The position numbers were made by a program, and so were the translations under genes. Under the pieces are notes generated by a model. It did no database searches. It was not told the origin of the DNA and saw only the letters and a list, made by a program, of their open reading frames with translations. From Uranotaenia lowii (taxonomy: Eukaryota > Arthropoda > Insecta > Diptera > Culicidae), in assembly GCF_029784155.1 (NCBI RefSeq), contig NC_073693.1:169809104-169873103 (forward strand): a stretch of 64,000 nt of DNA. Direction: 5' to 3'. This document shows, in pieces, positions 14,401 through 44,400 of this stretch. The first letter of the stretch is position 1, and each line of letters opens with the position of its first letter.

Positions 14401-17400
14401 ACTCCTAAGTAGTGTTGACTTAAGTCACCACTCAGCGCAACTATTCGATCTTCAAGTCGGGCGCTTGACCACCCGAAGCGCAGATCGAGCTATAGAACGC
14501 CCTCATCAGGTCACACTCGCGGTTCAGGCGCATCAATTCCCGAAACGCGTGTCGAACCCTGACACCTCCGGCAAAATGTGCCTCTCAGACACTGACGTGT
14601 AAACACGTCCCTAAGTGATCGGCCCACCATTGGCCACCACTTTGCGCATCTACTCATTTTGCGAGACGGGTCTATACCCACCGAAGCGCAAAACAAGTTG
14701 GCGATCGCTCTCCCTCCGGTCGCATCCGCATATCAGGGTCATGACCCCCCGAAAGCGTGTTGGACCATCACGCTCACACCCAAGTACTGGTACCTAAGTA
14801 CCCGGGTGCACCACTTCTTCCGCGCGGGTTTGGCGGACCCGTCGACGGCCTCTAGTGGGTTTGGTGTAGTTCTCTTGGCCGTACATCTGCAATACGCCGG
14901 ACTTCCAGACACGTTTCCACTCTGCACCACGGGGAGGTTGAGGTGGAACTACGTCGCAGTGTGTGTGTGTGTGTGTGTGTGTGTGTGTGTGTGTGTGTGT
15001 GTGTGTGTGTGTGTGTGTGTGTGTGTGTGTGTGTGTGTGTGTGTGTGTGTGTGTGTGTGTGTGTGTGTGTGTGTGTGTGTGTGTGTGTGTGTGTGTGTGT
15101 GTGTGTGTGTGTGTGTGTGTGTGTGTGTGTGTGTGTGTGTGTGTGTGTGTGTGTGTGTGTGTGTGTGTGTGTGTGTGTGTGTGTGTGTGTGTGTGTGTGT
15201 GTGTGTGTGTGTGTGTGTGTGTGTGTGTGTGTGTGTGTGTGTGTGTGTGTGTGTGTGTGTGTGTGTGTGTGTGTGTGTGTGTGTGTGTGTGTGTGTGTGT
15301 GTGTGTGTGTGTGTGTGTGTGTGTGTGTGTGTGTGTGTGTGTGTGTGTGTGTGTGTGTGTGTGTGTGTGTGTGTGTGTGTGTGTGTGTGTGTGTGTGTGT
15401 GTGTGTGTGTGTGTGTGTGTGTGTGTGTGTGTGTGTGTGTGTGTGTGTATGTGTGTGTGTGTGTGTGTGTGTGTGTGTGTGTGTGTGTGTGTGTGTGTGT
15501 GTGTGTGTGTGTGTGTGTGTGTGTGTGTGTGTGTGTGTGTGTGTGTGTGTGTGTGTGTGTGTGTGTGTGTGTGTGTGTGTGTGTGTGTGTGTGTGTGTGT
15601 GTGTGTGTGTGTGTGTGTGTGTGTGTGTGTGTGTGTGTGTGTGTGTGTGTGTGTGTGTGTGTGTGTGTGTGTGTGTGTGTGTGTGTGTGTGTGTGTGTGT
15701 GTGTGTGTGTGTGTGTGTGTGTGTGTGTGTGTGTGTATGTGTGTGTGTGTGTGTGTGTGTGTGTGTGTGTGTGTGTGTGTGTGTGTGTGTGTGTGTGTGT
15801 GTGTGTGTGTGTGTGTGTGTGTGTGTGTATGTGTGTGTGTGTGTGTGTGTGTGTTGAATGTCGCTCCTGTTTTTGATTTTGGAATTCGCTCTTCAGTTGT
15901 CAAAATGCCGTCCAAGGAAGAAGAGCAGCGTTACAGAATTTTGCTCGCTCATCGCAATAATCCGAGCTACTCGCACCCAAAGCTGGTAAAATCACAAAAA
16001 GTTGCCAAATCAACCGTTACAAATGTAATTAAGGTGTTTGGGGAACGTTGGTGACAGCCAGTAAGTCTGCTATCGAAAACAGGAAACCGCTGAGACGACA
16101 AAGAGATGCCGGTAGTTTCTAGCGAAGCCCTAACCTCTCTCTCCGAGATGCCGCAAATAAGCTGGGTGTTTCGTCTACAACCGTGCAAAATAAAATAAAA
16201 AGTAATGGACGACGAAACCTACGACAAAGCCGAATACAAACAGCTTCCGGGACAGGAGTTTTATACGGCAAAAGGAAAGGGGTAGCAGATATTTTCAAGC
16301 ACATGAAACTGCCAAACTTCGCGAAAAAAATATCTGGTTTGGCAAGCCATCTGTACCTGTGACCAGTGTTCCGAATATCACTCAATTCTCATGAGAGACA
16401 CTGAAACGTTTTCAACAGCGAAAGCAAAACCTAAATTGTCGGTTGGTTTATCTCCCAGTGGGGTAAAGATTGTGTTCGACAGCGCTGCTCCGAGAATCAA
16501 AGAAATAAAATTTGAAAGAGAGACGTTTCTTCTCCAGTTGGAATTCTCAACTGAGTAAGGAGCTACCTGATTTTCAGTTTCTTTTTTCAGTCAATAACTT
16601 TTCTTGCTCAATCACTCACTCACTCACTCGTTCACTGATCGATGATCGAATGCTGTCTGCCTGATACATCTTGCTTTGTTGTTGCTGTTGTTGGGGAGGA
16701 TTAAAATAGTCATTCAAACACGCAGGCAGTACGTATGAACATATGTTTCTGCCGCTTTGCCAGAAAGTACGCAGGCAGTATGAACCGATGCAAGGCCGCA
16801 TTGATTGAGTTTGAGTGAGTGAGTGAGTGGATTTTCGAATTGGATCTTGTATCAGTCAGTGTCTCAATCACTTCTGATACACCAGGTAGTGAGCTTGAGA
16901 GATCGACTTAGATGCGAGTCCGCTCTCGCTTTTGAATCTTGTTTACATTAACTTCGCATTGTCGCTCTGCCGATTCTCTACTCGCTAACTTTCAGCTACT
17001 CAGTTCAGAGTGACGGTTACTCAGTTGTCGCCAAAACCGCACTTACTCAGTTCTGACTAAACGGCTTTTACTCAGAACTGACTAACAGCCCTTTTCGCGA
17101 CAACTGAGTCGGGGATACTCAGAATGCGCGAATCATTCCGGAGCGAATTTTGGCCGTTTCTTTTACGTATAGGAATAGTCAAACCCAGTTTAATGATTAA
17201 TAATGTTTATAAAAAGAATAAAAACAGTAAAATATTGTGGAATATAGTATGGGAGAGTGGGGAATCATGGGCCACTTTTTTTCGTTGTTCCATAACTTTT
17301 GTATTATAAAAGATAAAATGAAAATAGAAAATGATATGGTTTTCTACATTTTCAAGGTATTATAAGGTATTTTTTTTAATTTTTAATAAGTTATTTTCCC

Positions 17401-41400: not shown

Positions 41401-44400
41401 TCCTACGGAAATTCATAAAGTGAACCTTCAGAACACTCTTCTTGTTGGTCCTCCCGATCCAACGGAGATTCATTAAGTGAACCTTCAAAACTCTTTTCAT
41501 GTTGGTCCTCCACTCTTCTTGTTGTTCATTGGTATTTTGAAGCATAACTTTTTGAAGTAATTGGAAGTTAATTTACTACGAAGTCGAATCTCTATTTTTC
41601 GTTTTTTTCTGCTCAATTTTGCAATTTTCTCTCTAATATTTGAGGCCTTTTTGCTATAGATAAATTCAGTACCGTCATCTGGGGCAACATGCAACTATTT
41701 TCAACTTCAATGGCTTCTAAAATCTTAATGCTTACAGATAATTATACCTCTTGTACATCAAAAGTTTTAAGGTTGATGGGACACCAAATTGACGTAGTCA
41801 GAAAAAATATTGGTTTTACCAGTTATTTTTAAATTTTCAAAAACATGCGATTTTCACCCTACTAAGAAAAAGGGGTAAGTTGCAACAAACTCTGTAATTA
41901 ATGAAAAATCAAATGAAATCGTATGAAAATTAAAGTTTTTTATACATTTGTGATGTCATAACGCATAAAGTACCAATTGCAGTAATTTTTTGTTTTGTTC
42001 GAATTAAATTCTACATTTTTTTCTGTCAAAAATGGTTTTAAGAAAAAAGTGTTTATCTGCTGCATACATTTAGGGGTAAAAAATACTACAAAATATTCTA
42101 TTAGTTTAAATCATGAAAATAAATCTTAAGATGGATGGAATCTTAATGTTAACGAACGCTAAATGAAAAACTATCATATCCCAGCATGTAGAAACGAAAT
42201 TTATGAGATTTAATTCTGATTTGTATTTTGTTGCATTTTTCCCCAGACAGCTATCTGAATTATAAAAATATTTATTTCAAAAAATTTGGTGATTGTCCGA
42301 AAAATATTTATACACCAACAGTGGTGGTATAGGATAATGAACGCAATATAAAGTTTGTAGGTGATATCATTAAGCCAATCCGTCATACTAGGTAAAGTTT
42401 TTTACGTCATCGAAAAATGTAAAAATTTGTTCATCTATTGCTCGATTTTTTTATTTTTTTATGAGAATCAAAAACTTTAAAATTCGCTTTCACGATGTTA
42501 AAAACTATGTCATCATCAATTTGTTATCATTCAATGATAACTTTATTACAGTATATTGAAATAAAATTGAATGAGTGTTGTGGTATACAAATGTTGCATC
42601 TAACCCTGCTTTTGCATGATGCCCCGTTTGACGGTACGAGTTTACAGCAATCAGGGGAAAAGATATGATCGTTAGGATCAGATTACGCAAAATTATCCTT
42701 CCTTCTCAATTCTAGTTCACGTGGACCTTCCCTAATTGCAAAATTAAATCCTTGGTAGGAAACCCCGTTACTTCGTAACGGGAAAGTAGTTCGACAACTC
42801 TAATTTCCATACTCACCACAAATTCTGTTAAACAATCCAACATCACTTGTATTTTCAAATAAAAAAAATCTCTACTTATTTCTGTTTCGATTGTTTTATT
42901 AAGTTTATTTTTTAAATTTATTCTTTTTTTAAAAGCCGTTGTAGTTTTTGTTTTCTGTTTCAGATATACATCTTTGCTGCTCAACCTTTATTTGAAGACA
43001 TATTTCAAATAGAATTTTAATTTGTGCCAATGAACAGTAAGCAGTATTATAATCAGATCATCCTGACTATTCAACTATCATTTGAGGCAATTAGGCCGGA
43101 ACAAATTCCAAATCCTTCTTTTGTCACTCGGAGTTGGAACATCGCGAGGGGGGGGGACAATAAAAAATAATGCCAAAAACAAATAAATTTTAATAAATTG
43201 CACGAAAGCTTGTATCCAACCAAATTCCATACTATATTATTGCACGAAACCTATGAATCAAATATTTTTTTTCATCGAAAAATTAATTAAAATCAAGAAT
43301 ACAAAATGTGAATTAACTTCCATCTTCCAAAGTTTGGTTCTTGGTCTTGTAATTTTTCAGATATTTGAATTTTTATTTGAAATTCACTTAAAATACTTCA
43401 AACTCTATTTATTCCCCCTTCGGGATTTTGGAAATTTCGAAGGGTGACAAAAGTAGAAATTGATATTTGTTCCAGCCTTATAACGACAAAAGTTGAATGA
43501 ACTTATCTGAATCGTCATATAAAAATAAAATTTTGTCAATATTTTGAAGCAATTGTTCGGTAAAAGATTTTTGCAAATATCCTCCCCAACTTTACAATTT
43601 TTTGGTTTTATTTATGACACTTTACCACCTTGTGGCATTCGTGTCTATTCGATAAGGATGGCTCTATAGATTTCCTTTTGCAGCTGTATTGAATCGCTCT
43701 ATTCATTTTGAAAACCATAAATAATAACATAAAAACGATATGAATGGCTCTATAGATTTCTTTTGCAGCTGTATTGAATCGCTCTATTCATTTAGAATAT
43801 TCTATTTCACACTGAGAGTCGAGCACATCATTCAAGGCGAAAGCAAACGAGCAATAAAAATACTATACATAACAAATGAGAAGTTGTAACAGGGGTAGAA
43901 TCCGTGCCCCCTGATGCTTGCTCATTCGTTGAAAGGAACGCCCACTCTCAAACATGTCGTTTTAAATTTAACCGAGCCCCTTAAACCTTTGTTTACCTCT
44001 TGCTTACAGCCTGTCATTAAAACACAATAAGAAGTATCTTCCCAAAAAGATAAACAAAGCACTTTTATCACAGCTTTTATTTAACATACCTTTTGCTCCG
44101 TGAGAATTTGGATTAATTCAGCAAGATTCTTTTCCTTTTTTTCGCCGCGTTTCACTTTTTCTTTCCACTCCTACTCCATCACTTTAATCTGCAGCAAAAC
44201 TGCAATCTGCACTTACTTTGATTGTTTTCAATAGCCAACAAACACTATTCCGCTTCCGCAATGAAATATATCTCGAGTCTCCCGTTCAACCAAATAAAAA
44301 AAATATCTCCTGGCAGAATTTGCCATTGTGGAAAGCTTGTTTCCGTTCCTATCGACTGAACGGGAGACATCCACCCACTCGCGCCGAAGATCGTGAGTTG

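Follow-up and report, generated by a model that had tools for sequence, protein, structure and literature searches.

The window analysed here, a stretch of 64,000 nucleotides of the Uranotaenia lowii genome (NC_073693.1, positions 169,809,104 to 169,873,103), contains copies of two families of transposable elements, designated alpha and beta. Both are non-autonomous elements inserted at TA, and each carries five copies of a family-specific motif of 15-17 bp. Counted from the first base of the outermost left site (T1), the alpha sites lie at 0, +18 and +381 to +383, followed by two inverted sites 191 bp apart; the beta sites lie at 0, +17 and +366, followed by two inverted sites 195 bp apart (Table 1). 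The second alpha site (T2) is a weak copy with four to five mismatches to the motif. We propose that alpha and beta are probably miniature inverted-repeat transposable elements (MITEs) of pogo-superfamily transposons, in which the motif would be a putative binding site of the element's own transposase, set out in a fixed asymmetric array.

With up to three mismatches allowed, the alpha motif matches the window 8 times (0.95 expected; none of 100 shuffles attained this number) and the beta motif 5 times (0.08 expected). Comparison of the alpha and beta sequences with each other gave a similarity no better than chance (best E 0.57). A preliminary description of this DNA had listed 15 motif positions and claimed that the two families share one five-motif architecture with different motifs; all 15 positions were found, at most 1 bp off, and the architecture is borne out both by the motif matches and by the motif-free scan described below. 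A third, decayed alpha copy had been overlooked, in which T1 with a weak T2, the inner-left and the inner-right site are visible, no outer-right site is present, and both outer ends are lost or changed; alpha is thus represented in the window by three copies, two of them with the complete five-site set. At least two alpha subfamilies exist, in agreement with each other at about 79% of positions: alpha 1 shows 93-95% identity to four loci in the set L001-L008, and alpha 2 a mean identity of 92% to loci L039-L068.

Table 1. Alpha and beta elements with their motif sites, the alpha 1 empty site (positions in the window), and transposase remnants elsewhere in the genome (handle:position).
Feature	Position	Strand	Remark
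Beta element	17248..18163	-	916 bp counting both TAs
Beta T1 (outer left)	18136..18152	-	beta motif match
Beta T2 (+17)	18119..18135	-	beta motif match
Beta inner-left (+366 from T1)	17770..17786	-	beta motif match
Beta inner-right	17454..17470	+	beta motif match
Beta outer-right (195 from inner-right)	17259..17275	+	beta motif match
Alpha 1, both TAs included	21481..27246	+	interrupted by a non-long-terminal-repeat (non-LTR) retroelement, about 22031-26837
Alpha 1 T1	21492..21506	+	alpha motif match
Alpha 1 T2 (+18)	21510..21524	+	weak copy
Alpha 1 inner-left (+383)	21875..21889	+	alpha motif match
Alpha 1 inner-right	27030..27044	-	alpha motif match
Alpha 1 outer-right (191 from inner-right)	27221..27235	-	alpha motif match
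Alpha 2	41670..42636	-	967 bp counting both TAs
Alpha 2 T1	42611..42625	-	alpha motif match
Alpha 2 T2 (+18)	42593..42607	-	weak copy
Alpha 2 inner-left (+381)	42230..42244	-	alpha motif match
Alpha 2 inner-right	41872..41886	+	191 from outer-right
Alpha 2 outer-right	41681..41695	+	alpha motif match
Third alpha copy, decayed	50130..57816 (50130-50779 + 57676-57816)	+	retroelement splits halves
Alpha 1 empty site	2021..2222	+	same flanks, single TA at 2121-2122
Short exon-2 matches in gamma clusters	C1:3145491, C1:16766025, C1:120056103, C1:194338723, C2:52262343

The insertion site of alpha 1 can be read directly, the flanks of the element, joined at one TA, matching a duplicate in the window at 202 of 202 positions. 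This empty site belongs to a dispersed duplicate (window 1-3274 versus 19359-28398, 99.2-99.4% identity), one copy of which holds alpha 1 with its retroelement and the other of which is empty. Excision of Passer elements leaves footprints of 0-4 bp, according to the available part of PMC9976928, so the empty site may be a clean excision rather than a place never filled; in either case it shows one duplicated TA. Aligned alpha copies nearly always start with TA-CCGTCAA and end with its mirror, and TA is present at both ends of beta and of the gamma family introduced below.

As regards the surroundings of the elements, beta lies inside a 2.3-kb insertion within a Tc1-like (DDE_3) element at 16072-19248; another Tc1-like (DDE_3) copy at 30753-31700 is without the insertion, with an overlap of about 4 bp between the alignments at that point. 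A 57-bp tandem repeat of 9.6 copies (40965-41511), open in two reading frames, ends about 160 bp from alpha 2.

Abundance and spacing across the genome

The genome contains 2,171 exact copies of the alpha 15-mer, and a beta 49-mer covering the outer pair occurs in it 945 times; the reversed control of each gave 0; first-look candidate counts of 6,417 and 2,981, of which 40 each were scored, are not copy numbers. A scan independent of the motifs required TA, 9 bp and GGGG at both ends, similar end motifs, and at least two inner copies. Applied to the window and 74 loci, it recovered only alpha, beta and gamma, which have the TA-9 bp-GGGG register in common, and nothing from the reversed sequences. 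Among the full-length alpha loci L039-L068, 30 in number, the scan detected all but L052, L057 and L060 (27 loci), and it detected five of the eight loci L001-L008. The inner-left site lies at +381 to +389 in the 13 recovered full-length alpha loci with T1 on the left, and the right pair is 191-192 bp apart in the 14 in reversed orientation; the spacing on which the claim of a shared plan had been staked is fixed, not random, in other alpha copies (27 recovered loci). Over 30 alpha copies the sites are 98.7% conserved against 95.7% for other windows (p 5e-5), and the two inner sites taken alone are likewise better conserved than other windows (p 0.015).

Gamma and delta families and their transposase genes

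A third family, gamma, was found in L074, adjoining the alpha copy L055. The element is 2,587 bp long counting both TAs, and its motif, GGGGCAAGAGTACGCA, occurs at 0, +17 (two mismatches), +356 and +380 (two mismatches); at the right end stand an outer site, two inner sites at distances of 198 and 220 bp from the outer one, and a single inverted copy. The inner sites enclose a gene in which a helix-turn-helix (HTH) exon, a DDE_1 exon and a DD35D triad were recognised. The DDE_1 profile match has E 2e-16, and exon 1 matches several HTH families weakly (E 1.5e-4 to 9.9e-4, all under the curated cut-off); the two exons and the triad therefore indicate a pogo-type transposase. Its homologs include proteins at 58% in Ochlerotatus camptorhynchus and 60% in Aedes albopictus, and occur in other insects too. 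A C-terminal PHD finger was matched in 6 of 40 homologs and was seen in the homolog P0001, and the family profile weakly matches, at its C-terminus, PHD fingers from MLL and Pygopus (E 0.001-0.09).

The gamma 16-mer has 493 sites in the genome (reversed control 0), and among the 100 places listed all 55 same-strand distances of up to 600 bp are distances of the common scaffold. The alpha inner-left site (+382) is closest to the second inner-left site of gamma (+380), and that of beta (+366) falls between the two of gamma. Of 107 genome matches to the gamma transposase, 28 are confined to roughly the first 58 residues encoded by exon 2, with an identity of 83-88%; all five of these in range of listed motif places sit inside gamma motif clusters (Table 1), which argues that the short gamma copies are deletion derivatives with the end sites kept.

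The gamma layout was also used for a prediction. A transposase relative 42% identical to that of gamma is encoded at C2:130108809-130109855, a locus in the PF03184 match list; the place of its inner-left site was predicted beforehand as 130110135-130110195, and 340 bases there were then read. At C2:130110115-130110152, near the predicted place and upstream of the gene, stands a tandem pair, TCTATGACCGGACA and TCTATGGCCGGACA, with a step of 25 bp compared with 24 in the inner-left pair of gamma. This pair, which defines the family delta, was spotted by eye and tested afterwards. The delta 13-mer CTATGRCCGGACA has 1,940 exact genome sites (reversed control 8). Among the 100 places listed there are 31 delta clusters, 15 of them with at least three sites, and 14 of these 15 have scaffold spacings, the exception being C1:55229285; 75 of the 81 same-strand distances of up to 600 bp are scaffold distances, of the other six, two are explained by a triple outer site, and the distances 180, 186, 187 and 240 misfit. 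With up to three mismatches allowed, the genome contains three occurrences of the 38-bp pair complete with filler. Two of them, at the C2 locus and at C1600:59743, precede a transposase relative (the latter that at C1600:60039), and the distance to the codon of its residue 8 is 296-297 bp. At the third, C3:68425275-68425312 (two mismatches), no transposase relative is among the listed matches nearby.

One might ascribe the likeness in layout between alpha and beta to a coincidence picked by eye, the preliminary description having compared only three elements. This is extremely improbable, as reversed controls of 0-8 stand against hundreds to thousands of sites, and a simple null model, whose tolerances came from the data, produced such agreement in 22 of 200,000 trials for alpha and beta and in 0 of 200,000 for four families; the genome-wide gamma and delta spacing already excludes it. 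In another account the families and sites are the same, but their spacing is simply a legacy of common descent, with no functional need. Homology of the gamma and delta transposases (42%) does imply a shared ancestor for their elements; yet no similarity between the spacers of the families is detectable where they are comparable (best E 0.19, delta being compared over 340 bases only), although the gamma and delta intervals are equal within about 1 bp (17; 356; 24/25; 198) despite different motifs, and the inner sites of the MITE families survived internal deletion. We regard mere inheritance of the spacing as unlikely. No helical phase common to the families was found when the spacings were compared by hand.

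A putative array of transposase sites

The array that emerges has on the left an outer pair, T1 and T2, 17-18 bp apart, with an inner site at 356-382 bp, and on the right two sites, one inner and one outer, separated by 191-199 bp. We propose that a single transposase with an N-terminal HTH region would read every site of its own family, that the outer sites would set the cleavage position at TA, and that the inner sites, located in gamma on either side of the transposase gene, would aid pairing of the ends, comparable to the inner direct repeats of Sleeping Beauty. The geometry would be held by the complex assembled on the sites, and a change of specificity would drag every site along because one protein must read them all. 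A need for the inner sites is favoured because the internally deleted families examined retained them and because the alpha sites are better conserved. Alpha and beta are placed in the same clan on account of their TA duplication, the 9-bp register from TA to GGGG and the spacing. We infer binding of the motif by the transposase, the need for the inner sites, and the use of transposases of this clan by alpha and beta. The idea put forward at the outset, that the binding sites of one transposase co-evolved, receives strong support from these comparisons, since the sites of each family appear to have changed together and gamma and delta share the plan with diverged transposases; for alpha and beta, no transposase was found near the places listed.

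Several observations weigh against this interpretation. None of the 253 listed alpha and beta places lies within 10 kb of any of 167 transposase places, the nearest being 21 kb away (31.8 kb for 119 beta places, 50.5 kb for 100 places of the alpha 15-mer and 21.0 kb for 34 of an alpha 39-mer); the test is weak because the listed places reach only part of the genome, to C1:143 Mb for beta and C1:75 Mb for the alpha 15-mer. A search for coding remnants in the alpha and beta MITEs gave profile scores no better than shuffled sequence, and the transposase frame of the gamma copy is broken near its end. Many clusters listed for delta represent one and the same MITE and are non-independent, both delta transposase loci are known from the inner-left pair alone, and, as the 38-bp pair is found at only three places, the delta MITEs share the motif and the 25-bp step with the transposase loci, not the filler. 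The left interval of alpha and beta departs from that of gamma and delta by up to 26 bp, and the five alpha sites have not been made identical but each retain their own variants, joint change being seen only between families.

The missing transposase, together with outer 9 bp and motifs of alpha and beta unlike those of gamma, would also suit movement of these two families by another TA-inserting superfamily (such as ISL2EU or Tc1), with a resemblance to the pogo families in layout only. We consider this improbable, given that the TA-9 bp-GGGG register and the array are the same as in gamma. A Harbinger/ISL2EU (PHIS, DDE_Tnp_4) source was moreover rejected after 30 of 77 PF13359 matches (loci of about 3.4 kb) had been scanned without finding such ends, a stray motif match in L022 lying inside an apparent exon, and the motif-free scan of five 10-kb regions was negative. 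ATon elements, which according to the accessible part of PMC3422177 are short and insert at AT, were set aside as distinct from the present elements. Collections of viral and prokaryote contigs yielded one relative at 26% (L075), without recognisable ends.

In gamma and delta the inner-left sites directly precede the transposase gene, a position that might instead suggest that the motifs are promoter elements or sites of a host protein. That they vary by family within one genome, cover the terminal repeats at both ends and are inverted at the far end makes this very unlikely, and transposase sites remain the preferred explanation. A more far-reaching proposal, which we hold to be doubtful, joins an invariant scaffold of five to six sites, whose code would have been rewritten everywhere at least three times, with a transposase that may sit on linker DNA between phased nucleosomes, the spacing being set by chromatin. 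It is suggested by the right interval of 191-199 bp, close to one nucleosome repeat, the left interval of 356-382 bp, close to two, and the PHD finger in some homologs. If an invariant scaffold with a rewritten code is real, it would provide natural, possibly orthogonal pairs of transposase and site within one genome.

How the specificity of a transposase shifts when several of its own sites must change too is an old question with few natural series. The U. lowii genome appears to offer four or more solutions built on a single scaffold, of which two are tied to transposase genes, and so makes it testable how specificity is swapped, whether inner sites are needed and what part spacing plays. 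The scaffold may also serve as a rule for matching orphan MITEs, such as those behind the thousands of alpha and beta sites, to transposases; its one advance use led to the delta motif.

Among the remaining features of the window are three open frames with trypsin domains on the same strand (28665-29621, 45536-46414 and 46660-47277) and a near-perfect GT repeat of 448 units (14959-15854).

Comparison with known transposons

The pogo superfamily (Passer, Tigger, pogoR, Lemi, Mover and Fot/Fot-like) is characterized, in the part of PMC7386202 available to us, by DDE_1, an N-terminal HTH, TA duplication and short terminal repeats; a further source used for the assignment is PMC7325037, likewise available in part. 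Gamma has all of these in common with the superfamily, as well as DD35D. DDE_1 was found in the gamma gene and at the delta locus, and none was found for alpha or beta at the places compared; TA duplication is seen in the alpha empty site and aligned ends and is matched by the TA ends of beta and gamma; the N-terminal HTH is represented by the weak exon 1 matches of gamma and by the domains of 40 homologs of its transposase, namely HTH_Tnp_Tc5 in 27, HTH_psq in 10 and CENP-B_N in 7. The available text of PMC7386202 does not mention, for the superfamily, a rigid and asymmetric array in which five to eight sites extend about 380 bp inward and which persists across families with different motifs.

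Within the superfamily, the same partial source describes Passer as DD35D with BrkDBD and HTH_Tnp_Tc5, or HTH_Tnp_Tc5 alone, and Fot/Fot-like as DD35D with HTH_psq and/or HTH_Tnp_Tc5, most Fot elements having TAA duplications (PMC7386202). Gamma has the DD35D named for both families. Of the Passer domains, HTH_Tnp_Tc5 was matched in 27 of 40 homologs and BrkDBD in 0 of 40 at E 0.01; the Fot/Fot-like domains HTH_psq and HTH_Tnp_Tc5 both occur among the homologs, but most Fot elements duplicate TAA. The occurrence of HTH_Tnp_Tc5 and HTH_psq among the homologs and the lack of BrkDBD would place the gamma transposase, by predicted domain content, nearer the Fot-like description.

Multiple transposase sites at an end have precedents. 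The pogo element of Drosophila melanogaster reportedly has a 12-bp transposase site twice per end (Wang et al. 1999), and Sleeping Beauty is a Tc1-type (DD34E) element. The latter has an inner and an outer transposase site at each end and an extra half-site on the left, the four main sites being required, and its direct repeats sit in terminal repeats of about 220 bp (PMC7827188, available in part). The inner and outer sites at both ends and the extra site on the left are points of likeness to the present families (PMC7827188); unlike Sleeping Beauty as there described, these have terminal repeats of about 25 bp, asymmetric ends, a left interval of 356-382 bp and a pogo-type transposase.

A possible parallel is offered by a mosquito family. 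The Pony MITEs are said to have TA duplication, Tc2-like ends and subterminal copies of TTGATTCAWATTCCGRACA common to both subfamilies (Tu 2000), a motif that reportedly ends in CCGRACA, compared with CCGGACA in delta. Pony reportedly uses one motif for both subfamilies, whereas here the motif differs by family. The sequence TTGATTCAWATTCCGRACA gave nothing convincing in the 371 kb examined, the best single match having three mismatches. The two divergent Pony subfamilies of Aedes aegypti number 8,400 and 9,900 copies, and the PonyAll primer, reversed, reads TACCGTTTTG... and opens with TACCGT as alpha does (accessible part of PMC2579443). Pony may be a described relative of these families.

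In the literature covered, which excludes most subscription journals, no description of the alpha, beta or gamma motif strings (the delta motif was not searched) or of such a scaffold was found. The initial assertion that no described family has this plan met no counter-example in that literature as regards the motifs and their spacing, but was too strong as to kind, given the inner and outer sites of Sleeping Beauty, the two sites per end reported for pogo and the subterminal motif reported for both Pony subfamilies. The plan is of pogo kind and resembles the inner and outer repeats of Sleeping Beauty.

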